From Elusimicrobia bacterium RIFCSPLOWO2_02_FULL_39_32 (GTDB lineage: Bacteria > Elusimicrobiota > Elusimicrobia > 2-02-FULL-39-32): 64,000 bases of DNA. The translations under genes were made by a program, and so were the position numbers. A model generated the notes under the pieces. That model was not told the DNA's origin. It was given only the letters and a program-made list of their open reading frames with translations, and searched no databases. Positions 20,901 through 64,000 of this stretch are shown here, piece by piece; within the stretch, counting starts at the first letter, position 1; every line of letters starts with the position of its first letter. The stretch lies in assembly GCA_001800135.1 (NCBI GenBank), contig MGUU01000016.1:186001-250000 (forward strand), in the 5' to 3' direction.

Positions 20901-23900
20901 TTAGGAGCTGAGAGAAGATACTCTTTTTTCTCTTTCTTCCTGCTCTAATTCTGGACTCATTGGCAGAATGGTTCCGTTGGTTAATATCTCAAAGATTTGA
21001 ATAAAGCTGTTCTTTGTGAACTGCCATAGATTGGCCTCTTGTGTCAGAATGGAAAGAGCAAAGTTCTGACTAAGCTGCCAGCCCATGTTTTGACCTTGCG
21101 CCCAAACCCAGGCATGGAAAAGTTCAGTTTCAACTTTTCCAGATTCAGCCAAAATAAGGCCAGAGTTATTTAGCTCGTGCTTTGAAGTCACAATCCAATT
21201 TTGCCTGACCGCATAGAACTCTTCCATACTTATTTTATTCTCCAAAGCTAAAGAGAGCAGTTCCTGCTCAAACTTGAATAACTCTAAATCTAATTTTTCA
21301 AAAGAAACATTAAAGACTAAAACAGTTTTGAGTAACTCTGGAGTAGCAGTCGCGCGAATTTGTTTAAGATAAGATTCTGCCTGAGCTTTAATGCTCTCAT
21401 CCTCACTAAAATCTAAAGTAAGAACATGATCCCTATTCTCTATTAGGGAACTGTGAGAGTCATCTGTTCCTAACGGACTAGATTTCAGAGAAACAATACG
21501 GCTTACTGAAATAGTTGGAGTTCCTTCACTTGGGAAGAGACTCTGTTTTTTCAAGATCAAGCCGTTCTCTAATAAAGCTTCATTGCTAATTTTTAACTCA
21601 GGGGTGAATTGACCTGAATATGCATGAGTTGCGTAAAATGGGATGTTAAGCGTTTCACCGGGATGTTCCGCCACATAACTAGCAGGCAAAACATGCGACT
21701 CAATCATGAGCAATCCAAATTCATTAATCAGTATTCCCCAATCTCTAAAATGTTCAACTAAATTTTGCTGTAATTCTTCATTAGAAATCGCCCTGCCAGT
21801 AACCTTATCTACAAAGGCAGCATCAGCGAAAGTGATTCTTAAGCTCCAATCCCCTTTGGGAGTTTGATAATCCCGGTTATGATCCACAAAAGAATGCACA
21901 TGAAGAATTCTATTCAAAGGAATACCGCGCATGACTAATCCTTGAGCAATCGCACCAGGATCATTGACAGTGCCTTCAAAAACCAAGTTTGGAATTCCCT
22001 CTTTATTTAAGGCTTGGTGCGCAATTTCCAAAGATTCAGGATTAATATCCACATCAATCAGAGTGATTTTATATTTTTCTATCCTGCCAGTCTCAGCCAA
22101 TTCTTGTTTCATCAGCCGTCCGCGTTCAGTATTATTTAAGATATACTCATGCATGTGCAAAAGAAGTGAACCATCTCCGCCGCCTGTATCTTGAATGTAA
22201 GATGGCTGGCGCTCAAAATCACTATTGTCGTAAATCTCCATAAGGTTATTAGTTAATTCCTTAAAGTACCTGTCGTGAATGTATGTGCAGGCAGCTAAAT
22301 TCATGGGGCGGTCTAAATGGGTTTCAATGTTGTTTGCATCCCGTTCAAATACTCTATCTGGATGTTCGCCAAAAAATAATTCTTCTTGGCGGCTAAACAT
22401 TGGCAGATAAGAAACCGTGACCCCATAAGTCCATGCTTTTTCAGCGGCAAACATTCCTTTGCGGGTTAAGGTAACCACATTGCCATTTCGAACTGCCCAT
22501 CCCTCTTGTTCTAAAAGATCAAAGGCAGACCTTAAATTAAATAAATTTCCTCCAATTTTTGTTAAGTCCAGAGAATGAGTTAAAGGATGGAACTTCTCAA
22601 ATACTTTAGCCTCTTTTAGCGCGACCATTACTGGGCCAATTAAGAATCCTCTCAAATGATCCGCAATACGAAGATTTACCGCGTCCGCTTTATTTTGAGG
22701 ATCAGCTTTTCTCTCAAAAAAGTCCCACTGCCTTTGGGATTTTTTCACCAGTTCCTGAAAATTAAATTGATTGATGAGCAATGGAGTTTTTGAATCAAGC
22801 AAAAATTCTTTCATTCGAGTTAAAACAGAGATAAAGTCCGTCACTTCTTGATAAGCATGAAGCTGACCTAAAGCTATTTTCCCTTGAGGAGTTAAATAAA
22901 ATTGCATTGAGTCAGAAGCGGATTTTCCTCTGCGCTTAAGCCAGCCCTGCATTTCTAACAGCGCCATTGCGGCATGCATATGACCTTTATTCACTTTTTC
23001 TACTTGTCCTTGTTCCAACAAATAGTCAGTTATTTCTTGCATGGAAATGCCGTCTTTTTCAGACAAAATTTTAAAAATATTTTTCTTATGAAATTCAGTA
23101 ATGGTGGAAGCCAAACCAATTCCATCCAGATGAATGAATATTTTTTGAAAAATCTCTTTAGTTTCATCTTTTTTGAGTTTAGGCAGAGAAACGGGGTTTG
23201 GTAAAGATGCTGGGGACGGAAGATTAGAATCAGAATTTGAGGCTGGAGTCTCTTGTGAAACAAACCGCTGGTCTTCAGGTAGAACATTGGTATCCGAAGC
23301 AGTTGTTTGGTCAGTAGGCGGAGCGCGGGAATCAAAATTTTCCTTTAGGCGGTTAGTTGGCGATCGAGGAGGATCGCGATCTTTTAAAGTTCCTTTACCA
23401 AAAAGCTGAACAACTTTTAAAAGAGACCAGGCAGCTGAAAAATCCTCTCTAGTAAGATCCGCGGGTTTTTCAAAAGCATCTAGGGGATGGCTCTTATCTA
23501 AAACAGGCTGAGCTGCTCCTTGTTTTAAGAGTTGCTGATCTTCCATGCTCAATTCAGTTTGCCCCTCTAAACCATACTTAGAGGTACGAACAAAACTCTT
23601 TATTCCTTGAAACCCAAGTAAACTAGTACTCCTCTTTTGTCTGCGGGCTAAATAAATTAAAAATCCAACTAATGCGCCTACTAAAACTATAATTGCTAAT
23701 GGTAAAAGAATTGAATTTAAAGATAAGGATCCAGCTGTACTGCTTACCACTTGAGGATCTAGCGCTTTACCTGTTTCCGCCATCGCCTTATCCACAACTG
23801 AAACAAAAGCTAGAACCCCAGTGAAACCAAAAATAAGAAAAGTTTTCAGGCTAGCAGTCATGCCCCATCTCATTCTTGCGTCATTGCTTCTTCTACTTAA

Positions 23901-26900
23901 AAGAGCTCCAACACCAAGGAAAAGAACTGCTGAACTGTTGGGTTTAGAAGATTTTTGATCCTCAATAAAATCTAATAGCTCTTTTACTTTTTTATCCGCT
24001 AATTCTTTTAACTGATCTTTGTTTGTCTGATTAAAATATTCAGGAGCTCGTTGCTGCGCGTTCTTAATGGTTTGGCTTTGCATGATCAGATTTCTTGGAG
24101 CATCCTCATAAAGATAGTTGGCAACAGCCAAATATAAAAGCATCATGTCCCAAAGAGTTTGTTGACGAGCATACTCTCCTGTAACATTATTAACCGCATC
24201 CGCAGGAACTCCTTCAAAAGTTGGGTAGCGCATTAAGTTTTCAATTATTAAATTATCCAACTGAGGGTTCCTGCCCAATAGCATTGCAGATGAATGGGGA
24301 GCGGATTCACGAAGGTCTGTATTGCCATAACCATTGTACTCCACCCCGCTTGAATCTGCTGCAGCGCTGATCCCAACCCAACGATAGCCGCGGGTATAGG
24401 CAAAAGCGATCTGGGCAATAAATTCAGAAAGAGCCAGCGCATCATAAGAAGAACCCACTGTATCTAAGGTTGGCATGGCTCTTGAAAATAAAGCTCCGTC
24501 ATCATAATTGCGATGGTAAAATCCATTTTGTTTTCGTCTTTTATCATCCACATCTGCTGGAATCGCCACTACAGGAAAACCAGGAACAAGTTCAAATATT
24601 TCATCTCCCTGTTTATCTTTAGCAAAAAGAACTTGGGGTGAAATCCTATACGCTTCATTTTCAGTTCCAACTGCGCCTATAAAGAGCCAAAAGTTATCTG
24701 TATGGCCTCTCAGCCCCCAATCCCTGATATAAGATACTTTTCCTGGACCAAGGAACTTTGCTCCGCCTCCTAAAAGATAATCCTTTAAAGCCCATCTAGT
24801 AATATCATCCCTAAGAAGAGGTTTGTAATTCATCCCATTTAAAATTTTAGAAGCGATCCGCACAGTTTCTCCATTTCCATTAAAAACCATTCTGGCTGCT
24901 TCCATTCCAGGGGTTAAATTTCCTTGATCGAGATAGGAGATATCTGAATTTGGGTCGAGCTTAAAAGGGGTGTCGTGATAAAGGTGTGTGGGCGTAAAAC
25001 CATCGCACTGACAGTTATCCGTTGCAGACTCTAAGCTTTTAAGCCCTAACAAGACAACCTCCTGATGAGTTAACCCATCTTTAAAAGGAATTTTTCTGCC
25101 TAATTTTTCAGCAACGCTCACTAATTCAGAAAATTTACCAATATTACTAGTAGTAGTTTTATCCAATTTTTTAGTTGTGTCTAAAGGGAGCCCAGTTTTT
25201 GTGTTAGTAAGTTCTGCAATGCGCGCCTCAATTTTTTGCAATAAATCTTCCAGATATTTTCGTTCCTCAGCAGTTACAGTTCCCTTTAAACCATTTTCAA
25301 TATTTGCTCGAGCCTCTGCGCGAGCATTTTCAGAAACAAGGAGGTCTATTCCTATAGGAAGAGAGGGTGTGGCTATGGGAGTTTGTGGCTTTGGAGTAAG
25401 TTGGGGTGTTGCAATAGCTGCAGGACGAGCGATAGGAGTGGCGTGAGATTTAGAGGTAGGAGAATCAAAACAAGCAGAGGCTGCCTGAACCACAATTGCC
25501 AGTAAAATCACTTTGCTAACCTGTCCTAATTTTTCAATCCAGCTTGCTTGTTTTTCTTTTTTAGGAGCTACTATTGAAGGGTCTGTAAAAGGTTGTTGAA
25601 CATAAAACGCGCCAATGCCGCCAACCATAGCATCGTAAGCAGAACTAATTCTGAGCCAACGATTGTCCCTATCCATGGCCCAGCCCCGTCCCATAACATC
25701 TACTATCATCCCCACATCTAAATCATCTAACACAACTTGCAATAATTTAATAAATTGAACTGCAGATTGCGGGCCAGAATCTCGGCCGTCTGTAAAAACA
25801 TGAATCTTTACCTGATCTTTTTTAAGTCCAACTGCTTTTGCCATTCTTAAAAGCATAAAAAGATGCTCCATAGAAGCATGAATATCTCCCTTTGATCCAT
25901 GAGAAACAAGCCCCATGAGGTGAAGGGAGGTTCCATTCTCTAAAGCCTTAAACATACTGCGCAACAACGGCATATTCTTTGCAAAAGATCCATCTTCTAA
26001 AGCCTGATTAATTAAAGTAAGATCGGATTGTAAATGTCTTCCTCCATCTAAGTTCACATGACCAAACTCTGTAGTTCCTGCAACCCCCATAGGATAACCT
26101 GCCTCTATACTAGAAGCATTTAAAGCAGTGTGTGGGTACCTATCTAACCGCCTGCCAACTCCTGAAGTTTTGCTTGTTAGCCAACGATCCATATTCAGTT
26201 TTGTTAATTCCCCAGCGCGCGCAATCGCGTTTCCTTTTTTTTGCTCACTTAAACCCCATCCATCCAAAACAATGCGCATTATTTTCCGATTAGGATCAGA
26301 ATCTATATGGGAAAAAATAAGGCTATCACTTGTCATTTCCTTAGGCGCAGCTATTCCACGCAATTCTAAAAGAGTAGGAGCGATGTTAGATAGTGATCCA
26401 TCCTCTATAAAATCAATATTCTCAAGTTCCCAATCGTTTCCACCCAATAAAATAAATGGAACCTTGTTTGTACTATGTCCCGGCATGGGGTTTCCTTCTT
26501 TATCATAAAGCTCTTCTGCATTGCCATGATCTGCTGTGATTGCAATGACCCACCCCTTTTGCAAAGCTGCTTCCACCAACCTTCCTAACTGCTCATCTAC
26601 AACCTGTATCGCTTTTACTACCGCGTTAAAATCTCCTTTTGGATTTACTTGAGCAAAAGCATGTGATACCATGTCTGGATTGGCATAATTAACAAAAATA
26701 TCAGTAACAGAAGGATCTTTTTGAATCACAGATATAACTTCATCGGTTAATGCAACCGCGCTCATCTCAGGCGCTTCCACATAAGAAGCTTTTTGAGGCG
26801 AAGGGATTACGCGCACATCAATTCCCAACTGATCCACCATGTTTCTGCGTCCATCCAAAAACCAGGTTCCAGCGCGCCATTTTTCAGATTCCATGAATCG

Positions 26901-29900
26901 GGCCTCTTTATAGCCAAGAGCCGCAATAATTTCAGAATAGGTTTGGCCAAATGGCGATGGTTCAAATGCTACTTGCACATGTTCGGCAAAAGCATCGTCA
27001 TAATTAGTCATGGTTACAAAATGAACTTTGGGTCTGGAAAAATTACTTACTAATCCACCTTCAAGCCCTTCATACCTTTCTGCAGGAGTAAGCGCATAGG
27101 TTATGGGTTTTGCTCGATCTGTTCTAAAATTAAAAAATATTGCGCTATCCCCATCCTTAATGGTTCCAACAGGTTCACCCTGCTGATTGACAACTACGAT
27201 GGGCGGAATTAATTGATCTTCAATCCCGCCGTTATAAATCGCATTTAAAACTGGACTTAAATCCTGATTTTCCAGAACAATCGTATTATCTTCAGTCCGA
27301 GCTTGATGAGCCAAATCCCATAAAGCTTGTTCCACCTGAACTCCTGTCATTTTCACAATCTGAGCTAATTGTTTAGATATCTCAGTTACAAAGGATAGAG
27401 TTGCTTTAGCTTTGACTTGAGCTTGAGCCTGAGCTTTGTCTTTAGCTTTAGCTGTAGCTGTGACTTCAGCTTCAGATTCAGCTTGAATTTGAGTTTGAGT
27501 TTGATCTTGAGCTTGAGCTTGTTTTGCGCTTTGACTATTAGGAAGAACTGTCAGATAAGCGATACCATAACTTTCAAGCTCTTTTATATATTTATATTCT
27601 AAACCTTTAGGAGCAACCAAATATTTTACCTTTGCTTTTTGAAGTTTTAGGATCAAATTGTTATCTATCTTATCCGTTACAAAAATCTCAATATCAGGAA
27701 TCCCTAGCTTGGTTCTTAAACCCGGACGCATCAGCCTCTTTAAACTTCCCTGCGTGTCTGGAAAATCTTTAAAGGAATAAACTCCTCTGCCTTTAAAAAT
27801 AAATAGTCTTTGATCGAACTCCTTCCTTTTTTCTACAGATAGACGATCAAAGAGAAGCTGTATGTTTTTCCCATCTGGGTCAGAAGCGATTACAAGTGCT
27901 CCTTGCTCCAAGAGCTCAAGAGCTAATTTTCTTTTTTCAAACTCTAACCCAGAAATTTGAACAACTTTTCTTCTTAGATCTTTAGTGATTGACTGAATCG
28001 TATTCAAATAATCTTGAAAGGTCAGTGATTCTTGTTCAGTGTCAGCAGGCGAGATAACTTTAGCTTCTTCTACAACCAACCGTTTTGGCTCTCTTGCTTT
28101 ATGAAGAGTTTCTTTTGCCTTTTCCCTTTCCCCTTTTTGCCTAAAGGCAAGAGCAATTTTTACAAAAGCTTGATTCCGCAAAGGAGATAAAAAATTAATT
28201 TTCTGGGCAAAAGAGTAGGCGAATTGAATTTTTTCAACTTCCAATAAATTTTCAACAATATAAAGAAAATCTTCTGCTTTTTTAGCTGTGCGTCCGGCAA
28301 GAGTAAAAGCTAAGGTGGCGCTAGACTCCTTCTGGCTCTCAAACAATTCCTTTCCAATCACCACATAATTTTTAAATTGATTTTCTGAATGATCCTGCCC
28401 GGCAACTTTATAAAGAGTTTCAACCCTGCCAGCTTCTATGACTGCTTTCACTAAAAAAAGAAAATCTGGGTCTAAAATAAACTGCGGATCAAATTTTTCA
28501 GCGCTTTTAACTGTTTTTTCAAAATCTTTTTTCTGAATTTCCCTCTTTACCTGATCTACTACTTTCTGCTTTTTATTCTTCCCTCCTACTCCACCCAATC
28601 CCCCCATCATGCCCATCCCACCCAAAATCCCAAGCGGGGCAGTAAGAAGAACAGTGAGGAAATTTCTCTTTGGAAGATCGTCATAAGAAATCTGCTGGTC
28701 CGCACTAACTATTCCTCTTATCTGCTTTAGTTCACCTAAAAGCGCACCAATTAAATTTACTAAGAAATGAGAAAGAAATGAGAAGGCGATTAAGTCTGAA
28801 GTAGAAAGAGGAAAGAATAGAAGTGAAAGATTAATCATGCTGATCAATGAAGCTAACCAGATGTTCTCTGGCGGAGGGGCGCGAGAACCAAGCCTTAAGT
28901 TGAGTGCGGATGAATGCAGAAAAATTAGCGCAAGCCAAGTAAAAATATAAGCAAACCTAAAAGCAAAATCTAAATTTCCACTCACTGCCAAGGCAAGAGC
29001 CAAAGGGATTAACCCACCAACTCTAAATGCAAATAAGTTATCTGCTATAAACGCAATTCCTACATTGTAAATCTTTTCTAACCGATCCTTAGCAACTTTT
29101 GGAAAGAGCTTTGCCAGCATTCCTACGATCGGATCTTTAACAAAGGGAATGATCCCACCCACACCACGAACATCTTCATTACTCCACTCTTCAATAAGCT
29201 GCCATTCTCCTTTTTGAACCAACTCTTCTGCAGCTCCAATAGGCATATACATCGCATAACCACCTAGATTTTCAACCTTATCATTCAAGGGTGCGTTCAT
29301 AATTACAATGAAATTCCTGTGCATGATTCCAATCACTGTAGCTGAATAAGGAATCCCATCATGCTTAACCAAGAATTTCTGCCCTACCTTGATTAGATAA
29401 TCATCTTCTTGAACTGTCTCCCTTTCAATGCGAAGCCCATATTGAACTAAGGATGAGACAGGATATGGAACAAGAGCCGATACCCGCCTCTTCTCAAGAT
29501 ATTGTTTAGATCCCAAAAAACCAAATATATCGTTTGACCAATGATGGATAGGGAGCAGAAAAGCGGTAAAACCATTTTCTGGTGTGGGTTTTTCAAATAG
29601 TACAGCTCTCTCCAAATAGTTGAATGGGCTATGAATATGGACAATATCTCCATTGTTTAAATCTTCTGGAACCAATGACGGCGTTGAGGGCATCTCTCGG
29701 GAGTTCTGGTGCGCTACAATATCTTCGATCTCTCTAGATAAAACGATTGCAACCTTTTTCAAAGACTGAAGACTTTTTTGACTTGCCATTCCTCTTAAAA
29801 CATCAATAATAATATTTGCAATGTCCTTATAAATCTTAATTCCCATTCCTTGAATCCACGTTTTATCAAAAACTATTCCCTTAAACCCCAAACGATCTGC

Positions 29901-32900: not shown

Positions 32901-35900
32901 TGGAATCTCTGACACATCTTGGTCCAAGCCGCTTTCGTCTGAGTCTCCGCCCACACCGCCTCCACTTACCCCGCCTCCCATCCCCAATCCGCCCATTAAC
33001 CCTAATGGAGCTGTGAGGAGAACGGTAAGGAAATTTCGTGCGGGTTTTCGTCTGACGGCTGTTGGTTTCCAAACTTCTTGATCGAATTGCGCGACCGTTT
33101 GATCAACATAAACTAATCCAAAAGATTTGTAGTAGGGTTCAAGAAACTTACTCTGTTTTAAATAAAGGATATTCTTAGTCCATATCTTAAAAAATAAATC
33201 CGCCATATCCCATGTAAGATCTGCGGGAGATTTACTCTTTCTCCAATAAGATTCATAAATGCCGTCAATTTTCTGAAAATAAAAATCTAAGCGGTACTTC
33301 ATAGCACTTTCCAAACGAGAAAGTTCCTCAGGACTCATGGAATATTGAGTTTGGGCGTATTCTGTCAATGAATCCATGCCTTTTTGCTCGACCTCATCGC
33401 GAAGTTGCTTGAGCCATGCAAAAAAACTTTGATTATCTTTATCGCTATCTTCATAGGCAACATTAAAATAGAACCGCATGATTCTAAATAAAAAAAATGC
33501 GCATACAATTCTTTCAGCAAGGTCAAGATTGTATATATTCTGAGCTACATTCTCTTCAAATTTTGGATCTTCCCTGGGGATGTCAGATTGGGCTATCAAA
33601 GCAAAACCTCTATCCCGCATCGTACTATGTTCGGATTTAATTTCCTTTACTACGTCATCAAATGCTTTTAAAATATTTCTCTCACTTATAAAACGATGCA
33701 ATTGATCTCTTTCCCCTGCCTGCTTGCCTATTTGCTCTCTTAAATCTTCCGCTATAGAGCCTCTAATTAATGTCATTACATAACGGTAGAATTCTAATGT
33801 TAAGTGGCGTTCTGGTTTTTCAACCGCTAATATTTTTTCTAGAACTTCTTTTGTTGAAGACTCCTTATTTTTTTCACCTTTCCTATTATGATTATAAGCA
33901 ATCCGACTTCTAATAAAATCGAATGGAAAAAATATAAAAATAATTACAGGGAAAAAAATAAGAAATAATGGATTTTTACGATATTTACCCCACCTTTCAG
34001 ATTGAATGATAAAACCATCCTTATTGGCTGCCCACGCGTAGAACAATCTAAAAAGTTGGCTTGTGATTCCTTCTGCCGCTATAGAAACATTAATTGGCAA
34101 AAGCATTTGGATGATATAGATGTTAATAAATCCAGGAATCCTGGCCATGAGAAATGCTTCATCACTTTTTTGACGACTCAATGGGCCCTCACTTACACTT
34201 TTCGACTTGCCCACAAAAAATGCATAGATTGTGACCTGTCCATATCCCAATCCCCAATGAGCAAGAATCCTCACTATTGCCACAACAATGTATGGATAAG
34301 GAGCATTTGCAGACATAAAAAAATTAATCATCCAAAAACCAATAAACATATATATCCCAAACAATATTCCTATAGGGATCATGGATAAAGTCTGTTTTAA
34401 TTGAAACTTCCTGCCCGTGATCCACTGAGCAAGAATATCATTCAGAACAGTAAATAAAGCGAACAAAACAATATTAAGGATTGGTGAGAGAATAGGATCC
34501 TTAATCTTCTCTAAACCAGAACCATACAAAAGACCAATAGAAAATCCTAGTATGAGATAGGAAATGACAAATTTTTTCCATAAAGGCAGCTTTATATTTT
34601 TAAGCTCTGAGTCTCTGCCCGCACCACCTCCACTTATACCGCCCGCCATCCCCAATCCGCCCAAAATCCCTAATGGAGCAGTGAGGAGAACAGTAAGAAA
34701 ACTCCGTGCGGGTTTGCGGCGAAATTTTAAATAATTGAGGAATTGGAGTCCATCTGAAACAAAACCTCCAATCCTAAATGGAATAAGGTTGATGGCTTGT
34801 GTGGCCATTTGAACAATAGAACTCCAATATAAGTAAGAATATAGAAAATGATTGGAAGGAACGAAATTTGCGATGAGAAGAAAAAAAGCGAAAGAAACAA
34901 GAATTCCTGCGATTGGACCTGCTAAAATTGCGATGGGCCCGGCGCGGATTGCGTTAGCATCTATGGATTGGGGATCAGAAGTATTTTGTTGAACCAAATC
35001 AGCTTTTGCAAAATTTAAGCCAGTAGCCAATGAAAGAAGCAAACCTTTGAGAGTAAAATAATTCAAAGGATTAAAATCACTCTTTTTTAATTTTCTTTTT
35101 CCTTCAATCGCTAAACCAACCATGTGCATCGCCTCGTGCGCATAATGCGCGGCGAATCCAAAACCACCTGCGGTTCCAAATGAAAAACCATTGAGGTCTT
35201 CATGTATCGCCACTCCCCTTCGGTTTAACATTTCGGATAACGCTTGATCTGAATCGTGGTTAGAAATAGAAACTCGCGCGATGTGGTCTCTGAGCGCCCA
35301 AACAATCTCTTCAGCTTGATCTACATCTATGCTGGCCAATACCCTAACTGTACCGCGCGGAATATTTAAACTATCTTCAATTCCTGAAATAATTTTGTGC
35401 CAGAGAATCGCTTCATCCGCAGAATCAATAGAAAGAGAAAGAGTTGGGTTCAACCCCTGTTGTTTGAAAAGCTCAGCTGTATTCGCGATGAAAATCACAG
35501 AATCCGCAATCGCGGCAGAAACTGAAAGACCATCTACCCAGATCGTTCTCTCCTGAGAAAGAAGATGTCTTGGCCGCAAAGCGACAGTGGGTTGAACCGA
35601 ACCATCCAATATGGATTTTTTTAGGTTTTGGATACGCTCTAAATATAATTCAAAGGCTTCATTTGGATTTGCACTGATAACGGAAATTTTTTGCTCCTCG
35701 GCTAATGGAGGAGATGGGTGTGTCACTCTCCAGCCACCTCTACGAATTTCATCCACGCTCGCCTCTTCTTTTTTGGAACGCTTTAGAGTATGGAATATGC
35801 GAACTTTTCTAGGGTCAAACCCATGGTTTTCAGCGAGAGAGCGTATTTCACCCAACTCAGCAAATCTTTCCAGAGTTGGTTTATAAGCTCTTTGTAAATG

Positions 35901-38900
35901 TGAAATTAACTTAAGGGCAGGTCCAGAAATAATTTGATAAGTATCCTCACTCAGTCTGGTTCTCAGATCAATCCCTAAACGATCCGCATCCACTTCTTTA
36001 AGAGCTTTCTTACCCCATGGATTTTCGCTTGGACGAAAAAAACCTCCGGAACCTCCACCCCCAATTCCAAGCAAAAAAAACATTGGAACTTTTAATGAAT
36101 GTGTCAAACCTCGCAAAAAAGCGCGGCGGTAATTAGCAAAGATGCGGCGCACGGAATTTAACTTCCTCTCATGAATATCCAACATCTGATTATATAGAGG
36201 TTGATCGGGCTTATTAAAACCATCCAAATATTTTTTAGACCTTTTCAAAGAAATGCGCTTTGCTTCATTGAACATGCGCAGGGAAAAAGATTCAGCTTCA
36301 ACTCTATCTTGTGCCTTAACAATAAATTCACTCTCCTCCTTTTTTCTGCCTGACTGAGTAGAAGGAGCGAGCTGTTTGCGAGCTTTAGAAAGTGTCTCTT
36401 TCGCCTCCTCTAAACTATGGATGCTCAAGAGAGTGGCTGAAATAAAATCATAGAGTTTTGATCTCAAATCATCATCCTTAATTTGATCTGCGGTTTCTTC
36501 TGCCATTTCAAACATCTTTTCAGCTTTTACAAAATATTCTTCACTATTTTGATCTGACGCCAACTTATAATAGGCTTCTCCAAAACGGACTGATGTCAAA
36601 GTTCCTGATTCATCATCCTTAGGAAGAAAACCAAATAAATAAACAAGGATATCCGCTGTTACCCCAGCATCTTCAAGCTTTTCTATGATATATTGGTGAG
36701 GGTTTTCTAAATCAGTTTTGTTTGCAAGTCTCACAGCTTTTGAAAATGAGAGGTTCAATTTATCTTGTTGCTCTCCCATACGGTAATATTCTGCTGCCAT
36801 CTGAGCATAAATTTCATAGCGGTAAGGGTCATCCGACTTCATTTGACTATCTTCTTCTTCAGTTAAAATTTTAAATACTACATCACTATGTCCAGCTTGA
36901 ATCATGCCCTTTAACAAAAATTCAAATTCTTCCTGGCCAAAAATTGACATGGGTTGCTTTGGATATTTCTTGTTTAAGTATTGACGTGCCAGTACCAAAG
37001 ACTGCATAAATGTAAAGGAAGAGTTAACCCCTATCCTACTCTCATTCAACCCGATTTCAGCAAAAATTTTAGAAAGCAGATAACTCTGTTTAGATGAATA
37101 GGGATAGACCAACAATCTTTGAGCTATAAGTGATGCATTATGATATTCACCTCGATTGATTAAATCCTTAATCGCCAAAATCGCCAAATTAAACCTCTTT
37201 CTTTGCTGAAGAAAACCAAATAAAGTCTTAAAGGCAAAGGAACTCATTATAAAAACAACATAAAGAACCGGATAAAGAATAAGATAAGCCCTTACAAAAA
37301 CTACATTTAATACCGGGTTCTTTATGAAAGGCTTCTCCTCACGCCACTTATGCCAACGCAGGGATTTATCCAAATACCAATTTTTATTAACAGACCAACT
37401 ATAAAATAACGCAAAAAACTGCGTGGCAACCCCCTCGGTCGCTACAGACATTTCCTCAGGAACAAACATCTGAATGATAAAATTCTTAATAAATGAAGGG
37501 ATGCGTGTCATCCAAAATGATTCGAACTGTTTATCCTGGCTTGGGTTTTTAAACCAGGCTTTAATGATTTCTTTCAAATCCCATTTTTTTTCAGATTGCT
37601 GAGAGCTGCTCATCTTCTCTACGAGCCGGGCATAAATAAAGGTTCTTGCCCGTACCACCACCATTGCGCCTACCACCCGGATCGTTGCCAAAAACAAATA
37701 AGGCAAGGAAGAATCTTTTGGAAAATAATAGTTGAGTAAGGCAAAACCAACAGCAGTAACCGCACCCATGAACAGCCCTGCCGGAAATGCATGTAAAGTT
37801 TGTTTAAGGATGATTTTTTTCCCTGACATCCACTGCCCCAGAAAATCTGAAAGTGTGGTAAAAAAACCAAATAACAAAATATTGGCGGTTAAAGAGAGCA
37901 GCGGAAGCTGAAGTAAGCTCAAATGAGAGCCATAAAGTAAATAAGCGAGATATCCAAGCAATGAATAGCTGAGAATAAATTTAAGCCAAATCGGCGCATG
38001 CAAAATCTTTCGCACGGGCTTTATGGAGATTAAAAAGATAAGTGCAATGAGCGCAACTCCTATGATGAAATCGAATGGCCAGGAAGGAACTCCTCCAAGA
38101 CCAAGAGCCACTCCATTTTTAGAAAACAAAAGCCCAAAAGAAACCAAACCCACAGCAAGCCCTGTTACAATTTTTCCAGAACCGCTTCTTTTTCTTTTAG
38201 GACGCGAAGCCTTTTCCTGAAGTTCTTGAAAATAAGCTGGATCATATAATCTAGGATGTCTTGATCTTAATGCATCCTGGAACTGTTGGGGAGTAAGAGA
38301 TAAAATATTTTGCAGATCATCAAAAGTGACAGAGGTGATTGGAACAAGTTTATCAAAACCATAAAAAAGAACTCGATGGTCGTCTGTTACGCCAAAGTCG
38401 CCCAAGGATGCTTTTGGAAATTTACCCTGCTCTGAAAGTATGTCCTCCAATGTTTTGCCAAAATCCAGCGCAACTCGCTGCGCAAGAGGAGTTCTACCTT
38501 CACGATCCAAAAATAGATTTAAGGGCCTAATCTTTCTTTGAACAAAAGAATGTTTAATATGGAGATAATCCCCCTCGGTTCTTACAGACTCTTTAGCGCT
38601 TCCTTTTAATAATGCTAGAAGATCAGGATGAAAATATCTCTTAGGAAGACGAGTATCAAATGTAAATGTGTTTAACATGCGTCCCATTGGATCCACGCTG
38701 ACCTGATGATATTTTTCCACCACTTCGTTTCTGGTAAGAGCTGTAGCTCCTTCAAAAACATCTTTCATAATTTTAAGCACATAAGGAAATCCAGGAAGAG
38801 TGATGACCACCATGGCTCTTCCAGGCAACCCTTCGGCAATTTGAAAAACTTTGTCCTCTTTAGCTAATTCCTTCATCATCTTTTTATAGAGAAGCTGCTC

Positions 38901-44954: not shown

Positions 44955-45176
44955 ATGAAACAAATCCTAAAGGCTATCTATGAAAAAGGCGTTTTAAAAC
45001 CTCTAAAAAAAATAAAATTTCCAGAACATAAGGAACTAATCGTAACCATTCAAGACAACGACGATTTGCCCTCCCATCTACTTACCAAAGCTGCTGAAAA
45101 AAGTCATTCTTATCTATTTCTTAAAAAAAAAGGAGAAGACATCTACTCTTTGGATGATGGGAAACCCATCCACTAA
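44955..45176 (+). CDS. AF2212/DUF104-type antitoxin of TA cassette 1
   Basis: 73 residues beginning MKQILKAIYEKGVLKPLKKI, the K-x-I-x-A-x-Y-E-x-G-V-x-K-P-L signature of DUF104 antitoxins. It is followed after three bases by a MazF-type toxin. It should bind and neutralise the toxin and repress the shared promoter, which also faces giant 1. No ribosome-binding site precedes the ATG, consistent with a leaderless message. Confidence 0.8.
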   Translation: MKQILKAIYEKGVLKPLKKIKFPEHKELIVTIQDNDDLPSHLLTKAAEKSHSYLFLKKKGEDIYSLDDGKPIH

Positions 45177-45179
45177 AAA

Positions 45180-45527: not shown

Positions 45528-45535
45528 CCTTTTCA

Positions 45536-45760
45536 ATGAAAAATAATTTATGCGCCATCTGCGGAGGAAAACTTCAAAACAAAAAAACGACCATTGATCG
45601 AATGGTAGAAGGACACATGTATTTGTTTGAGAAGGTTTCCGTTCAAATATGCGAAAAATGTAATGAAATTTGGATCCCATGCCGTGAAGCTGAACGAATG
45701 GATCAAGCCATTCAAGGAAAAATAAAACCCCATAAAAAAGTAAGCGTTCCAGTTTATTGA
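45536..45760 (+). CDS. YgiT-type zinc-finger protein
   Basis: 74 residues with two CxxC pairs (CAICGG and CEKCNE) about 28 residues apart, as in YgiT/MqsA-type N-terminal zinc-finger antitoxin proteins. The helix-turn-helix half of MqsA is absent. It is third in the cassette, possibly an accessory antitoxin or regulator. A deletion remnant of the same gene lies at 46430. Confidence 0.75.
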   Translation: MKNNLCAICGGKLQNKKTTIDRMVEGHMYLFEKVSVQICEKCNEIWIPCREAERMDQAIQGKIKPHKKVSVPVY

Positions 45761-45773
45761 AATTTCTCATTAA

Positions 45774-45857
45774 ATAAGAAAAGACAGCTACAAAACTTAC
45801 GGCTGCCATGAGTTGCATCCAGCTCCTATTATTCTTACGCATCCAAAAGTGAATCAC
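45774..45857 (-). pseudogene. Remnant of a giant-gene 5' end
   Basis: Copy of the giant 1 start region (44814-44897) at an offset of exactly 960 bases. A 31-base run is identical, from AGTTGCATCC to CTTACGCA, and the flanks are similar. It encodes MIHFWMRKNNRSWMQLMAAV but with GTG in place of ATG. The homology ends after the signal peptide, where the frame runs on antisense to the zinc-finger gene. It is the relic of a duplicated giant gene or of a duplicated junction. Confidence 0.85.
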
Positions 45858-45867
45858 AATATTTTCC

Positions 45868-45896
45868 TTGACACAAACAGTAAATCCTGCTATATT
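45868..45896 (+). promoter_or_regulatory. Sigma70 promoter of TA cassette 2, leaderless
   Basis: TTGACA (45868-45873, perfect) and TATATT (45891-45896) with a 17-base spacer. ATG 45903 is seven bases after the -10. Same geometry as the promoter of cassette 1, and part of the duplicated segment (shared AATCCTGCTATA). Confidence 0.85.
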
Positions 45897-45902
45897 TTTT
45901 AT

Positions 45903-46085
45903 ATGACATTAAAATCCATAGAAAAAGCGGTAAAATCACTTAACCTAAAAGAACAACGCAAATTGCTTACAGATTTACCTTTACTCATTCACATATCTCA
46001 AGAGGATATTGCTCGCTTAAAGGTATCTGAGAAATCATTTCAATTTTGGGACAACCCAGAAGACTCAATCTATGACACCCTATAA
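45903..46085 (+). CDS. Small putative antitoxin of TA cassette 2
   Basis: 60 residues from ATG 45903 (an in-frame ATG at 45813 lies upstream of the promoter and is rejected). The sequence MTLKSIEKAVKSLNLKEQRK and QFWDNPEDSIYDTL is not related to the DUF104 antitoxin of cassette 1, although promoter and toxin are paralogous. The end overlaps the toxin by 14 bases. Called antitoxin by position and size. Confidence 0.65.
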   Translation: MTLKSIEKAVKSLNLKEQRKLLTDLPLLIHISQEDIARLKVSEKSFQFWDNPEDSIYDTL

Positions 46086-46419
46086 ACAGGGTGATATCGT
46101 ACTTGTTCCCTTCCCCTTTACAGACTTAACCACCACGAAGAAAAGACCTGCTGTTATTATTTCTTCAGAACGGTTTAACAAAAAATATAATGATGTTATC
46201 GTGGTAGCGATCACTTCACAAATTCCTGAAAGCATATCAGAAGAAGAGATATTACTTTCTCCCATTGAACAAAAGGAATCTGGCTTGCCAAAGACATCTC
46301 TTATCAAGATCGGAAAAATTTCAACCATAGACCAAAGATTAATTAGAAAAAAACTAGGAACCATTCCACGCACAACATACAAAAAACTTATAGATGCAAT
46401 TGACACAATAATAGTGTAA
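46072..46419 (+). CDS. PemK/MazF-family endoribonuclease toxin 2
   Basis: 115 residues with QGDIVLVPFPFTDLTTTKKR, then PAVIIS and LPKTSLIKIGKISTID, which are standard MazF/PemK words. It shares GDIVLVPFPFTDL with toxin 1 but is otherwise clearly diverged. Translated by coupling from the overlapping antitoxin. Confidence 0.88.
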   Translation: MTPYKQGDIVLVPFPFTDLTTTKKRPAVIISSERFNKKYNDVIVVAITSQIPESISEEEILLSPIEQKESGLPKTSLIKIGKISTIDQRLIRKKLGTIPRTTYKKLIDAIDTIIV

Positions 46420-46429
46420 ATAACTCAAC

Positions 46430-46532: not shown

Positions 46533-46567
46533 GATTCTTCATGCAGACTTCTGAACAATCACACGAA

Positions 46568-49440
46568 TTACGCTTGGATGTCAACCACGCGTTTGCCTCG
46601 GAATTTATTTTCTATGCCAATCACTAAACGGGTTACATCCCTGCCTTCCATGCCTGAAACAAGTTCAATAATCTGAACAATAGTTTCATTAAGGTCGCCA
46701 AGAGCAAGACGACTTGCGTCATCTGTAATAATGCGGAAGTTTGGACCCAGCCACCAGCCAAAATCTTTATAAATCTTAGCTGCATTGACTTTATCTGACT
46801 CTGTCTCACCTTGGAACTTAACGCGTCCAGCTCCATATCCCTCATCCAAAATCCGATATAGAGCTTCCCCATCTCGAACTCCCATTTTCTCTATCAGTTT
46901 GATTTTAAGTTCAGTTCGGAACGAATCCGCAGAACCTACGCGAGATAAAAGAATTCTTTCTCCTTCTCCAATTCCATTTTTGGTACGTTCGTGAAGTTGA
47001 GTAATTAGATGCTTAGCGCCAAGGGCAGACTCTGGATCGTCCAAGAATAACGCGGACAACTCAAACATTTCTGATTCTTCTGAGAGACCAGACAATTTTA
47101 CATTCTTGATAGAGGCAATTCCTTTATCTAGGAACGCTTTTCTGTAACCTTCAGTCACGATTTGGTTGAACTTTTCTGCTTGTTCAAAAGAAAGAGCTCT
47201 CTTTTTACCAGTTTGACGGTCAAAGAGTTGCGCAATCTCAGCTAACTTTTGCACTCCTTGCGCATCCTCACCCGACACAGATGCCCTCTCATCAAATGTA
47301 GAGGTCAATTCCTTAATCACTGGGACTGACACACTAAATTCCTTATATGCAGTTCTTAAAATAGCATCTGTCCCTTGTTTTAGCGCCGCTCTATCTCCGC
47401 TTAGGCGATACTCATATCCCAACGCGTAAAGAGCTTGTTCAATTTTTTCAATCTTTTCAGGCTCGCTGGCATTTTGAATTTGATTCAATCGAGCTTTAAA
47501 TGTTTGAGGGCGAACTTTAATGAAAGTTGCGGCGCGCGCCATAAATTCCTTTTCATTTAAATGTCTTGCGACCCGCACGCGCGCTTCAATATTTTCAGGA
47601 GCCCGACCCGCTGCTAGAAAATAACTCTTTGCCATCTGCGCTGACGCATAGACTGTTGCAGGCAGAAATGGAACCGTTCCTGCCAGCCAAGCCAAAGCTT
47701 GAGGCGGAATAAATCCATTGGAAGGCAGGGCATGAAGCACGCCGGGAAAAATCATTGAAAGGGTGAATCCCGCTAATGCAAGAAGAGCAGCGCCTGCAAT
47801 AACAGTCATTGATTTTTCTTTCATAAAATCTCGATAGTTGAGCAAAGCTTGCAGAAAAATAATTCTTTTATGTTCCATATTTTTAGCAGCTCTAAAAACA
47901 AGGGAATCCGCATAGTCTTTGGGAGAAACAACATCATAAGCGCCAAAGACTAAAGTTACCTTTGAAAGAAGACCAGGATTATTCAGCAACACCCGATAGA
48001 TAAAGTCCTCCTGAACAGAATTTCTAAAATTTGCTGGAGGAACAAACATAACAACGGATTCTTTATTAGAAAAGAAGGATTTCAGATGAAAACTAAGCGA
48101 GATGGGTGCATGTGGCTTATAAGTTACATCCAGACCTGCAGCTTTTGAAAATACTTCAAACACATCATCAGGCTTATCCGCATAACCATCATTATCATCA
48201 TATAACCTTAGCGGAGAAAGACTAGCCCCGCCTTTAAAAGAATCTCGCTGGTCAATGAATTCATAAGCAGTAAGAGCTTTCCCTCCATTTGTCTCTAATA
48301 TATTTTTAATATCAGCGGGAAGCTTACTGGCTGCTATCGCATTATCAAGATCAATAGGATTAAAGATTTCTTGACGCCCTTCTCCAAAGTTATTCAATGC
48401 AAAAAAGCGCAAGGATTCATTAAACGCTAGAATATCATTAAGCCCTTGCTGATAATCAGGAAAGTCTCTTGAATATTCCTTTTGAAGTTCATTCTGAACT
48501 TCTCGTCTGGCAAATGCAATTTCTCTAAACAGTGCCCTATTAGCTGTCCAAGGTGAGTCAAGCTCATTAATCCGTTGATCCAGAAAAGGAACCTCTCTAA
48601 AAGATTTGTAGCGATTCCTGATGATTTGATCTCCCCATGCCAGAATGTGAGCAACTCTTTGCTTACTCCACTCTTTTGTTGCTTGGTATCCTCTTAATAT
48701 AAGATGACCATAATGAAAAAGTTGAAATTGTTCATGTTCTAAGCGAAATTTATATTGCTCAGGCGTTAAACCGTTTTGCATGTAAATATAATTTATTCCA
48801 TCAGGCAGGATGCGCGAGCTGGGATCGCTAGCTAGATTGTATGAACCCATGATTGCTTTTTTCTTAAACAATTGACCAATACGAAGCTTACTGATCTGCT
48901 CTTGATCATCGCTATTCATCACTGCATCCCAATCCACGAAATTAGAATTTGTATAAGGAACAAGATAATATTTTATGGTTCCTCTGCCTGGAATCTCGAC
49001 TTCATAAAATTCTTTTGAAATAAAGTTGGTATAATTAATTAAATCTCTTATTTCATTATCATCCAACTCTTTTTTATCAATAATGTCGCCAAGTGCTCCG
49101 CCCTCCCAACCTTTTTGAGGCGAGAGATAATTCTTGATGAGGGCGATAGGGTTATTAGGGTTGATAGGGTTATTGGTTTTAAAATGCTTCACCGCCCAAA
49201 TGCCTCCGAATAAAGTTCCCAAACCAAGCGATAGCTCCAGAATGTTCCAACCGCTGAATGCTCCGCCAGAGTACGCATCTACCGCGTTTGCTATAATTCC
49301 AAAAGCGATTGCCGCAGGAACTCCCACAGTTCCCAGCCAAGAAGCCACCATCAAAGAATTTTCCGCAAACTCTTTTAAGCTTTTGTTATCCATAGGAATC
49401 GGGCGAGAAACTTTCTTTCCCCCTCCTTCATTAGTTTTAA
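46568..49440 (-). other. Unassigned C-terminal region of giant 2
   Basis: Begins with a membrane pair ([20 protein letters not shown] and [20 protein letters not shown]), then a short slippage-type tract [13 protein letters not shown] (about 49130-49180) and a soluble region. Two further membrane helices appear near 47630-47810 ([20 protein letters not shown]). The final 350 residues are helical and charged. No family recognised. Confidence 0.4.
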
Positions 49441-52400
49441 ATTGCGCCTCTGTGGATTCTTTGCCAGCAGCTCCAGTAGCATTAGAGCCGCGCATAATAA
49501 CACGTTCTCCTTTGCTTACCCTTTTAGTTCCAGCCTTAGTTTGATGCTTTCCGAATCTAACCCCATCTAACTGTTCTATTTGCTGAACATTAAAAACAAA
49601 TCCTGCTGCGCCTAAGCGTAACATCTCCTTTGCAGTTCTAGAGATATGAAGAGCATTGGTATGATCTTGGAATATGGTGACAAACTGGAATCCAAAACCA
49701 GCTCTGCCCATGTCTATGCTAAAGTTAGCGATCGCTTCTAACATCACTAAAACATCAGCGCCATATTCTCCCCAACTATCTGGATTGTCCCACCTAAACC
49801 CTTCTAATTCTTTTGCCTTCTTTATATTCTCAATCTGTTCTTTAGTTAGAACAGCAGACCATCCTTCAGGATCGCTCCAGTTAAAAGATGGAGAAAGATT
49901 TAGAGCAAAAATAATATTTTTTGCCTCAGGGTTGTGCGGATCGTTTACCACATTGTCATGAAATTCTCTGGCATGCTTAATATTAGGCCTGTCTTGTTCC
50001 ATCCATGCCACATCCGCAATCTTTGCATACTGTCTCATCCGAATAGAAGCATTTAATACCCCTAATCCGCTGTCAATTTGGTAAAAACCTTCATAAACCC
50101 TTGGTTTATCCCAATCCCAGTCAATTTCAATTCCAATTGTTTTAGCAAGAGCCTTCATCTGATTAAGAGAAAGAGTATTGGTTAAAGGATTAGTGGCATC
50201 TTCCCACCATTTCTTAATATCTTCCCTACGCTGTTCAGAAGCAAACCGGGATGTTCTCATCTCCAGAATCCTCTCCCCAACTGCTTGAGAATAGGTTTTA
50301 AGTTTAGCTTCTGCCCTCCAACTTTCAGTCAATTTCTGCAAGGCAGCTTCTTCTTTGGCAAGATGAACTGGCTGCCTTTCTAAAAGTTCTTTAACAGTGA
50401 CCTCTTTGCCATTTTCATCTTCAATCAGAGTGTCGAGTTTAAGATATGGATATTCTCCATGCTCAATCAGTTCCCGATGCTGCCAAACCGTATTGTAAGT
50501 AAAGGTATTGCCATCTTCACTTGACCGAGGATCTTTGACTTTAAGAAAATAAACATCGGTTTCTAATCTTTTTCCATTGATCCTTCCTGTAGAATTCCAA
50601 ATATCGCGAATGGTTCTGCCTAGTTCAGGAAATTCTTGCTCCCACATCTCTAAAACCTGCGCAGGAGTTTTGGGAAGCAAGATATTCTCAATCTCTTGGC
50701 GATTGACCCGGGCCATTAAATCTTTAGCTCGGTCAATAAGCGCTGCGTTATCCCCGCGATAAGCATACTCAGGCATGTCTCCTCTTGCCAAACGAATCAC
50801 ATCTTTTAAAGAAGGGAGATTTTTTACTGATGAGCCAAGAATAAAATAATGGTCCATTGGATCGTCATTACTCTGCAAGAGCTTTGCTGCCTGGGCGTCA
50901 GTGCGGGCAATAATCAAAAGCTCTGAATGAAGCCGATCCCTCTCTTTACCAGTTATCAGAAGTCTTTGAAAATGCTTTTGAATGGAAGTTAAAACTTTAC
51001 CAGCCATGTGGCCGCACTTCTTTTCCCCATCAGCTTGATCTTCTAAATGAATGCTTGCCGCCCCGGCCCGAACAAAATATTGCACGAGCTTTTCTGGCGA
51101 TAAATGTCCGGTGTCCCCATCCGCATAGAATGGAATTAAGTAATCAATCAGATAACCTTCCAAAGTTTGGAATACTGTTTCCCTCAGAGCATTTCTTTGT
51201 TCATGAGCAATTGAGCCTTGACTTACATACTGGGCAATGGCCTGCACCACAACTTCTGAAAAAAGATTGTAAAGCACGGTTTCTGAATCTTCCCTTAACT
51301 CATCCACAAAGATCGGAATATCTTCCCCTACTACATTCATAAACTTCTCTATGAACTCATCTCTAACTTCTGTGCGCAGCACTAAATCGTCTGCTTTAGT
51401 TTTAGGAAGGGTTCGATAGAATTCCTTAAAAATATCCTCCAGCTTATCAGACATCTCTTTATAACGACCCATCTGGTCTTCGTGCTGATTGCGCAAATAC
51501 CTATTAATTTCATAGATCTTATCTGGAACTGTGTTGTCCGGATACTTTGCCAAGTCTGGTTCGCCCCAGTGGTGCGACATTTGCCAGCCGCTAAAATAAA
51601 GCGCTTTCATTCCTTTTTCCGCCATTGCAGCTGCTGAAGGGCCATCCATCACTCCTCCTGTTACAATAGGGATCCCAGTTCTTTGAGCTTCTCCCATGAG
51701 GAAAAAAAGTTTTCTTGTCGTAAGATCATGAAAAGTTTTATCATCCAAAACAGAGCCGCGAATAGCATAAATTTCGCTAGCTGAATAAGGCCGATTTCTC
51801 TGGATACGGCTAAAACGATCTGACCTCATCCATTGATCAAGCGTAGAGATATTTTGTCTCATTGTCTTAATCCAAGAAGTCATGCCCGCAATTTTAACCC
51901 CGCCTGCAAAATGAGAATAGACTCTTCTAGCTATTCCTTGAACAGAACCAAATTCTCTTGCATCCGGGTTATCAAACACATAGTCAAAAGCTTCCAGTGT
52001 TTTTTTGTCCCACTCGCCTGACCTTACTTTCTCTGCCACATCTTTTCTGGAATCGCTATAGACCGCATCCAAGATTTGGTCAATGACAGCAATATCTTTT
52101 TCTGGATCCAATTCAATAATAGAAAGAAGGATTCGGGAGCCATAAGTAACCCACTTATTCTGCATGGAATAGGTGTTATCGCCATTGTCAATGATGAGCT
52201 GGCGTTCCAAAATTTTCATAATGAGCGGAGAAAACCTGCGATCATTTTTGGAAAGCCCTTGGCTTTCAAGATAATCTATTTTCTTTTCAGCGGAAGCATA
52301 AACTTTATCCAGAACCATCTTAAGCAGTTCAGGTGTAACTTTTGTGCCTGCTTTAATTACAGTGCCGTCCCGCATGGTTCCATCTTTGGTTAATACCACT

Positions 52401-55400
52401 TCATGCTTGGCAAGAGTCCACATCCAATGCCAGAATATTTCGTGAGTGGCAAAATCATTCATCATTCCGTTGTCGCTCTTGTAGTCAAAAATCTTAACAG
52501 CTTGATTCCCATTCAGCACCCCAAAACCATACTCTGCGGACATGGTAGCCGCATACTCAATGCCGTCAATGGAAATATCCCCTTTGGGAACCCGGGTAAG
52601 ATCATCCCACTTTGGTTCTGACCAGAGATTTTCTAGATCTTCTTTTGTGACCAGATAGTGTTTGATCTTGCCAAGCTCATCTACTAAACCCAAATTTTTT
52701 AAACGGTTCAATTCGCTCTCATTGCTGCGATCCACCAAACTCTGCAATTCATCTAAAGGTGTAACCAAAGGCTCTTCACCTGAACGCACATATTTTTCCG
52801 TAATAGTGGCTACCCAGCTCTGGCGATAGGTATCGTAAAGCTCGCCATTAATAATAATCAGTCCTGTTAAACGTTCGCGCAATTTATCAAACCATATATC
52901 TCTAACCGCTTTTTCATTTGCAGCCAACATTTTTTCTCTTGGTTCTCCTTGTTCAGGAACATTTCTTTCCATTACAGCTGACATTCCACCAATGGGCATG
53001 CCATTCACCATCTTCCCATTTTTTACCGCTGCCAGCACAGTAAGAATCGCGTTTCTGCGGGTATATTCTGTCATGGTTTCATCAGTCATTTTTATGTCGT
53101 GCGGATTAGGCAGAACCATGTTAGGATCGTCCTTACCCATTTCTACACGGCTAGCGATAAAGTCCCACCGCCCCACGTTCGGGCCGATGAGCCAGTCTCT
53201 TAACACCCACATGATCGCCTCTTGGTTTTGTGTGAATCGAATTCTTTCATGCAGCATCTCGATTTTTATGGTTCCTCTAGGAACCCCAATCTCTTCTTCC
53301 AACGCTTTTAACAATTTAGCGATAAGCAATGCTTCTTGCGGAGTCTCAATTTTTGGAATATAGAAATAAATTCCTGAACCATTCTTTTTTAAGGATTCAT
53401 AATTATTTAAAACATGAATCACCATGGCCGCAATGGTTGCGGGGACTCTTTCCCCGCCAATCCACATCTGGCGGTTTCTGATGCCAAGACCAGGCACGCG
53501 GTGGAAAATAGATCCCCACTCCCCGCGTGGAAGTTTAATTGAAGATTTTTTTCCTGCTGCATCTGTGTATTCATGGCCTTCCCATTTACCAGCTAAAACT
53601 TCTTTTAAATTTTTCCAAGCAAGGTAGAGTTTATCGTTGTAATCGTCTCCCGCATCTTCCCAGTCAAACATCCAAGAAGCGGTTTTGGCGTTGATGGCGC
53701 TCATCAACATTCTTAAAGCATGGGCTGGTCCTGTTCCTTGCAATCCCGGACGCAAAACTTCTTGAGGCACAGGGGTTTTATCATTTAATCTCCAACGATT
53801 CTCACTATCAACGCCATAAAAATTATCTATTAGACCTTGGCGTATCTCTTCTACTGTTAACTCGTTTCCATCCGCATCTTCAATAATTTGATCCGAATCC
53901 AAGAAACCATACTTTGCAGTTCCTTCAGAAACAGCTTTCAAGAAATCTCTGCGATCTTTTAAACGATCTGAAAATTCCGGACCAAGTTGAAGCGTAAATT
54001 TCCTAATAAGATCTTCTACTCCCACTGCTCTGCCATTCACAATTCTATTGCCAAAAATTTCCGGATACTTTCTCCAAATATCTTCACGGATCACTAATTT
54101 TTGCGCCCGCTCTCTAAAATTGATTAAACCAGAAGCTGCAGCAAGCACCGCCCCACCTCCCCAGCTCGCAGCCTGCGCTGCTACAGGCAAAGCACCGCCT
54201 AATCCCATAGCATTGGCAACATCTCCAAATGAAAAGCCCCAAAGAAGTGCGCTCACGGACAGAAGCCCAAATAATCCAATGATAACAGAAGATAAGCGAT
54301 CTCCCCTTTCTTTATCTATTTCTATATTAATTCTTTGCACTTCCTCTCTAGCGTCTTTTACTTTTTCAAATGCTCTATCTCTATCAGATCTTGATATCGA
54401 ATTATTGTCTTTATCATTTTCAGCTCTATCAAGTCTGCTCAATGCGTCTCTCAAATCTCTAGATAGGGAGCTTCTCCTATTATCATCACTAGACCCTCCA
54501 CCTCCACTCATGCCTATCACACCAGTCACTGCAATCAGAGCATAGTTCGCCTGTTTCGCTATCTTGTTGACTGACCTTTGGAAAGCAGGAATAAAGAGGT
54601 AAGCCAGTACAAACACTCCGCCTCCTATCGCTAAGGAAATGCTAAAAGAATGCGCAAGAATAAAAGCCTGAACTAAACTCAAATGCAGAGTCTGAGCTTG
54701 CAAAAAACTCCACGCAAAACTCCAAAGCGCTGGATGAGTCTGCAGAAAATATATGAGCACAGGCGCAAAAACTACAGCCGTAATAAAAAGCGCGGACACA
54801 GTAACAGATTCCGTCAAAGTAAAACCGTTCCCGGGCACACTGGGTCCAGAACTACCGTATTTTTTATCAGCTGTTGATCCGCTGCCTTCATCACCTTCGG
54901 CAGTTCCAGCGCTCATTCTCGATTCCAAATCTTCCAAATCCGATAAATATTTTACAATCGCCTGTTTATCGGGATAGATCGGGCCAGATACTAAAAGATG
55001 GTAAAATTCAAAAGTTCTCTTTCTATCGGAAAATACCAACTCTCCCGCCCTAGCAAGAAGACCATCCACCAAACTAACAACATCCTCTCCCTCTGAATCA
55101 ATCAATGATTGATGCTGTTGTTTGTATGCAGAAACTGCAAAAAGCGCCTTTGCTTGCGGACGCACGCCTGAATTGTCAATGCCAAGAAGAGCCGTTCTCA
55201 TCATAAAAGGATCATTAAGAACGCCGCTCATTGCAATGTTCAGATTCGCAATAAAGAGATCGAATGTCCTATTCTCAAACCAAAAGTCAACCACCCCTCT
55301 AACTACTTCTTCATCAACCCAAGTCATGCCATTAACAATCGCATCTTCAACGATAGACTCTACCTTTGGGACGTCGTCGTAACCTCTTTGAAGATAAACA

Positions 55401-64000: not shown

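Follow-up and report, generated by a model that had tools for sequence, protein, structure and literature searches.

Giant genes of an Elusimicrobia bacterium as probable membrane-anchored mosaics of housekeeping enzymes

The window analyzed here is a stretch of 64,000 nucleotides from the draft genome of Elusimicrobia bacterium RIFCSPLOWO2_02_FULL_39_32 (contig MGUU01000016.1; G000:C16:186001-250000), a genome of 2.52 Mb in 27 contigs that is ~97% complete. The host is probably a groundwater member of the Elusimicrobiota. It contains two giant genes, which lie with all their modules on the minus strand and are given here in window positions. Giant 1 (20901 to 44963) spans 8,020 codons from a mechanically called TTG start. 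This start is probably wrong, and an ATG at 44897 (MIHFWLRKNNRSW..., ~7,998 amino acids [aa]) is preferred because the resulting N terminus can be aligned with that of giant 2 (MIKFW.../MIKFWIKKQNKSW). Giant 2 occupies 46568 to 64000 and continues outside the window to an ATG at C16:250975, 975 bases past the window end, for a full length of 6,135 aa. As three further consecutive giants (giants 3 to 5; 10,747, 3,524, and at least 8,383 aa) follow on the same strand beyond the window, the array comprises at least five giants over >115 kb. Giants 1 to 4 begin alike (the sequence of giant 5 stops short of its start), and the signal peptides of giants 1 to 3 end in (S)APFAEA↓S-type sites. The signal peptide of giant 1 (MIHFWLRKNNRSWMQLTAAVIVFSFLFTTVSAPFAEA↓SLW; 44787 to 44897) is kept in giants 2 to 4 and in relatives.

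The initial annotation had read two uninterrupted frames of 24 kb and >17 kb that carry modules of central metabolism. Indeed, both frames are free of stop codons, and profile searches matched every module that it named. Its placement of the modules stood in part: all are present, but isocitrate lyase (ICL; AceA) and malate synthase (MS; AceB) sit in giant 2 and AceK sits in giant 1. With frames of 24, 18, and 32 kb, signal peptides or transmembrane helices, and a host in the Elusimicrobiota/Omnitrophota lineage, these genes belong with the giant open reading frames (ORFs; >20 kb with a signal peptide or transmembrane helices). Chance ORFs or misassembly were ruled out as an explanation, because a genome of the same genus has these modules in an identical order, with the modules ~80 to 90% identical, and relatives are found in other genera.

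The region between giants 1 and 2 (44955 to 46419, plus strand) contains two PemK/MazF-type toxin genes (45180 to 45527 and 46072 to 46419), an AF2212-like small partner ORF (44955 to 45176), and a small ORF with a zinc motif (45536 to 45760). On the minus strand, this toxin-antitoxin region also contains what is left of the start of another giant (MIHFWMRKNNRSWMQLMAAVS...; 45519 to 45857), in truncated form. Elsewhere in the window, the product of a plus-strand gene (16498 to 18132) has a type IX secretion sorting domain (CHU_C), a hint that the genome encodes a type IX-like secretion system.

Giant 2 carries, in order along the chain, an amino acid dehydrogenase of the Glu/Leu/Phe/Val (Trp-type) family (ELFV; 60959 to 61939), a class I fructose-1,6-bisphosphatase (FBPase; 58859 to 59650), MS (52286 to 53776), and ICL with insertions (49430 to 51850), all identified by profile. 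The ICL module scored 318.6 bits against TIGR01346 (cutoff, 275.9) in four stretches in the TIGR01346/PF00463 family test and retains the KKCGH catalytic loop as well as SGWQ, ARTDA, and NLSPSFNW. The MS module is a divergent homologue of malate synthase A, with a score of 133 bits that is below the NCBIfam equivalog cutoff of 594.5 bits. The equivalents of R166, E250, D278, and D447 (Escherichia coli AceB numbering) are all retained, and these four catalytic residues are present in three genera in the available sequence. The FBPase module keeps the DPLDGS and KLRxxYE metal and substrate motifs; it scored 34.7 bits against PF18913 (cutoff, 27) and 34.3 bits against PF00316 (cutoff, 34.8) within giant 2, with 40.2 bits in the genome search. 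For MS and FBPase, and likewise for AceK, phosphoenolpyruvate (PEP) synthase, and the mutase discussed below, the residue roles are the ones known for these enzymes.

Family searches of the ~97%-complete draft genome, which for FBPase covered class I, detected no separate gene for ICL, MS, or class I FBPase; according to the initial annotation, such an absence would argue for functional modules. This absence is strong but not final, because draft genomes can miss genes. Stand-alone citrate synthase and isocitrate dehydrogenase-type genes are present. MS and ICL are found together within large frames in three genera, including this one (g1, g2, and g4), and another genus of the same family (g3) has a stand-alone MS gene with ICL directly downstream.

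Profile searches of giant 1 revealed a D-2-hydroxyacid dehydrogenase-like module with its catalytic and NAD parts spread across 440 aa (40308 to 41639), an AceK regulatory and kinase module (38313 to 39788), a malate synthase TIM-barrel fragment (35268 to 35579), a phosphoglycerate mutase, and a module with AprA-like N-terminal, winged-helix, and methyltransferase parts (21525 to 23147). The AceK match is strong (E value, 3e-95) and reaches model position 495 of 582. In both species of the genus, D457, N462, and D475 are replaced by A, D, and G, while the ATP lysine and D477 are retained. With three catalytic residues lost, AceK is probably a pseudoenzyme, and its proposed role as regulator of the neighboring glyoxylate shunt was rejected. 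A hydrophobic stretch of giant 1 (~34719 to 35171) contains HEAMH and NLIPFRIGGFVSDG, resembling an M50 site-2 protease; it is missing from the sister species' copy. In giant 3, all three parts of a PEP synthase/pyruvate phosphate dikinase (PPDK) are found, with the GGxTxHA histidine and CGQA retained, together with HEAT repeats and a malate synthase fragment. Giants 4 and 5 yielded Glu/Leu dehydrogenase modules in the profile searches. These two giants (C16:285661-296235 and C16:296848-321999) also have in common a module with an RDHExxH(F/L)K motif (36% identity over 260 aa), possibly a metalloprotease.

The phosphoglycerate mutase of giant 1 is of the 2,3-bisphosphoglycerate (BPG)-independent type and matches the whole enzyme (TIGR01307, 402.9 bits; cutoff, 330.65), with its domains in a noncanonical order. 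The C-terminal half (26316 to 27272; profile and alignment) precedes the N-terminal half (25602 to 26285; profile), such that the equivalents of residues 221 to 510 of the Geobacillus-type enzyme 1EJJ come first, followed by those of residues 5 to 213. A short linker bridges the old termini, and only about seven residues are absent at the new ends. The module retains D12, H123, R153, D154, R185, R191, R261, R264, K336, D403, H407, D444, H445, and H462. The set of metal and substrate ligands is complete in this genome, in the sister species (G001), and in a member of another genus (G005), and in each the nucleophile Ser62 is replaced by threonine. The permuted order also occurs in a member of another family (G028), where most catalytic residues are lost; in the rest of the class, mutases are stand-alone proteins of 500 to 650 aa. 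An AlphaFold model of the permuted module built from four sequences reached a pLDDT of 40, too low to be informative. A literature search for a described circularly permuted enzyme of this type gave no match. The giant 1 mutase was rejected as the only phosphoglycerate mutase of the genome: a stand-alone archaeal-type mutase of 405 aa, recognized by eye from its sequence rather than by family search, is encoded elsewhere. Together, the probably dead AceK and the loss of most catalytic residues from the G028 mutase indicate that modules can persist without catalysis.

The first module of each full-length giant, behind the signal peptide, lies at 42759 to 44786 in giant 1 (QDxH ... VEGS ... GGYH) and, for its C-terminal part, at 62876 to 64000 in giant 2. 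In the phylum, 60 of 295 genomes matched a profile of this module, most matches being in frames 1,000 to 11,000 aa long. When copies truncated or misaligned at the alignment edge are set aside, a 32-sequence alignment shows [D/E]xH, a glutamate 27 residues past that histidine, and GGxH near the end. TIKI hydrolases have been described to use two histidines and two acids, with His/Glu pairs at 3902 and 3930 in VvRRSP and at 85 and 113 in Bcr135 (PMC6254334). The spacing of 27 in the giants compares with ~28 expected for the TIKI/ChaN superfamily. AlphaFold predicted a good core (mean pLDDT, 75.7). The closest matches were weak: Foldseek returned HopBA1 (5t09, TIKI fold) with a probability of 0.80 but an E value of 0.63, and PF04187 matched one member with an E value of 0.04. 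No significant match came from searching Pfam and PDB profiles with the module. Compared with VvRRSP, HopBA1, and Bcr135 of the TIKI/ChaN/EreA superfamily, the module agrees in [D/E]xH, the glutamate 27 residues on, the second histidine near its end, and the weak HopBA1 fold match, but it differs by a long helical insertion before the second histidine, and its sequence and fold E values are not significant. We call the module TIKI-like; a protease role for it is conceivable. At the start of the window (2 to 5839, minus strand; full ORF C16:183899-191851), a 2,650-aa frame has a weak ChaN/Tiki match (PF04187; E value, 4e-4). The 1,983-aa ORF beside it (5842 to 11793) has GAGKT- and DEID-like motifs of helicase/SecA type and no Pfam match.

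Between the modules lie hydrophobic hairpins, glycine-rich linkers, and many membrane segments. One example hairpin (23652 to 23843) has a signal peptidase-like site (VVDKAMA↓ETGK ... ARRQKRS). In 26 simple hairpins, Lys plus Arg per residue amounts to 0.15 to 0.18 in the flanks versus 0.06 in the loops and, by the positive-inside rule, the modules would therefore be cytoplasmic. The N-terminal signal peptides imply that the first module, at least, is exported. A simple topology of giant 2 is thus in conflict, with the signal peptide placing module 1 outside and the hairpin charges placing the enzymes inside, and the number of membrane crossings between the two is ambiguous. Of the earlier suggestion that the giants are membrane tethered or exported, tethering is supported by the signal peptide on each full-length start and the many membrane segments; full export is doubtful, as the charge bias favors a cytoplasmic side for the enzyme modules. 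Glycine-rich linkers open with a twin-arginine-like RRNFLT in giant 1 (~28600 to 28660) and in the sister species' copy (KRRNFLTILLTAPLG).

The only other genome of the genus (G001) provided the dN/dS comparison. For the giants overall, dN/dS was 0.22 to 0.26. Values of 0.05 to 0.11 were found across most of the MS/ICL block and of ~0.05 to 0.15 across most of PEP synthase, with 0.14 to 0.29 in four ordinary neighboring genes. Such low values argue against drift. Furthermore, catalytic residues are retained between genera at ~40 to 50% identity. Across the modules, most catalytic residues are intact and under purifying selection, and the active-site residues of ICL, MS, FBPase (core motifs), and PEP synthase are retained. 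Two blocks of giant 1 (residues ~2967 to 3450 and 3985 to 4505) are present or absent between the two species exactly at GG-rich linkers, which demonstrates modular shuffling at two junctions. Residues 3451 to 3600 of giant 1 are encoded by ~150 codons identical to those of G001; the dS of 0, unlike that of the surroundings (~0.3), points to recent recombination or gene conversion.

Giants in more distant relatives are built from other housekeeping enzymes. The NagB module of the G028 giant has an intact GIGRNGHIAFNEPG; the same giant also carries an RNB nuclease domain that retains all four aspartates, together with an adenosine deaminase-like part and the dead permuted mutase. A giant of G022 combines RecJ with an M20 peptidase, a low-molecular-weight phosphatase, and a cation efflux domain, and its PPDK parts are permuted. 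In this latter case (L098, residues 1154 to 1979 of the piece), the PEP-utilizer mobile domain comes before the PPDK ATP-binding domain with the low-molecular-weight phosphatase in between, the second case of an apparent permutation among the giants. The glyoxylate theme is therefore one instance of a wider habit, and the dedicated pathway for growth on acetate or lipid proposed by the initial annotation proved too narrow.

We conclude that the giants are membrane-anchored mosaics and not an acetate-specific exported complex. On balance, we favor the reading that they form part of a giant gene family of Elusimicrobiota and that several of their modules are active in this genus. Each full-length copy would begin with a signal peptide followed by a TIKI-like hydrolase module, after which enzyme modules captured by gene fusion would be strung between hydrophobic hairpins and glycine-rich linkers, and recombination at the linkers would allow whole modules to be gained and lost. 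We consider it probable that ICL, MS, FBPase, PEP synthase, and the permuted mutase are active enzymes attached to the membrane; the activity is suggested by their largely conserved active sites and the cytoplasmic orientation by the charge bias. As giant 2 is the only detected source of ICL and MS, the enzymes of the glyoxylate shunt most likely come from this giant. A bolder formulation, which we offer tentatively, is that housekeeping metabolism may partly be run from signal peptide-bearing giant polyproteins or membrane "enzyme strings" whose modules (ICL, MS, PEP synthase, phosphoglycerate mutase, NagB, RecJ, and RNase) have been captured, permuted, shuffled, and possibly freed by a built-in TIKI-type protease, an arrangement that would be undescribed in any bacterium.

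It is rather unlikely that the giants are polyproteins, i.e., single chains cut into enzymes by signal peptidase or prepilin peptidase at internal signal-like segments, by the N-terminal TIKI-like protease, or both. Several first hairpin helices do resemble prepilins (GFTLxE) or signal peptides with AxA sites, and one is lipobox-like (AASAC); such segments are found at module borders, where two candidate cleavage sites are conserved in the sister species. Prepilin-like GF[TSAI][LRT]xE motifs occurred 11 times versus 0.84 expected in shuffles, many of the copies being related repeats. Moreover, the N-terminal module has the TIKI pattern of two histidines and two acids, and TIKI relatives include proteases. 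However, no site is common to all giants, AxA after a hydrophobic stretch is frequent by chance, prepilin peptidase normally cuts off short leaders, and the M50-like HExxH region of giant 1 is missing in the sister species' copy.

An extracellular or cell surface role in contact with other cells has been proposed for the giant ORFs of Omnitrophota, and giant ORFs are also described in related phyla (PMC10066038, PMC12057145). Applied here, the enzyme folds would be structural, binding, or decoy elements without metabolic function. The signal peptide on every full-length start, the many transmembrane segments, the dead AceK, and the dead G028 mutase are in keeping with such a role, which we nonetheless consider improbable: ICL, MS, FBPase, and PEP synthase have kept their active sites and require cytosolic cofactors, MS/ICL dN/dS is very low with no other ICL or MS genes found, the hairpin charges place the modules inside, and adhesion and carbohydrate-binding domains are absent from the searched giants. 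That the enzymes were captured accidentally and are now drifting without function, as the degenerate AceK, MS fragments, and G028 mutase might suggest, is largely refuted and very improbable given open frames of 18 to 32 kb in several species, the dN/dS values, and the catalytic residues kept between genera.

Membrane-anchored mosaics of this kind would matter in several ways. Published accounts of poorly understood giant genes of uncultured bacteria lean to adhesion or predation. Here, recognizable central metabolism enzymes with intact active sites and no detected stand-alone substitutes for the glyoxylate shunt make function directly testable. The locus also offers a naturally occurring circular permutation of phosphoglycerate mutase, with threonine as its nucleophile, as well as a setting in which close relatives differ by whole enzymes inserted or deleted at repeated linkers. 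With modules facing the cytoplasm, the giants would amount to a membrane metabolon fused at the gene level; with modules that are cut out, they would amount to a bacterial polyprotein. Overall, the arrangement points to a little-known way to package metabolism.

Giant ORFs are known from Omnitrophota and related phyla (PMC10066038) and have been noted in Elusimicrobia (PMC12057145, PMC11573180). To our knowledge, giants that join active housekeeping enzymes into mosaics after a TIKI-like N terminus are undescribed in the searched literature, and a search for Omnitrophota with isocitrate lyase gave no match. The giants studied here resemble those of Omnitrophota in their size (>20 kb), their signal peptide or transmembrane segments, and their occurrence in uncultured bacteria of related phyla. 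In contrast, the published ORFs are described as having few annotated domains, mostly related to adhesion or polysaccharides, whereas those studied here share a TIKI-like N terminus and carry housekeeping enzymes whose active sites are largely intact. Bifunctional ICL-MS fusions occur in nematodes, Euglena (in the order MS-ICL), and Anaeromyxobacter (PMC1630690). As in these fusions, giant 2 has MS and ICL in one chain, and in the Euglena order; however, the former are two-enzyme proteins, while in giant 2 the pair lies inside a multimodule membrane giant with FBPase and a dehydrogenase. AROM, CAD, and fatty acid synthase likewise combine several enzymes per polypeptide, which catalyze consecutive cytosolic steps. 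The giants are like them in joining several enzymes on one chain, but the enzymes they mix are unrelated, signal peptides and hairpins are present, and modules are shuffled between species.
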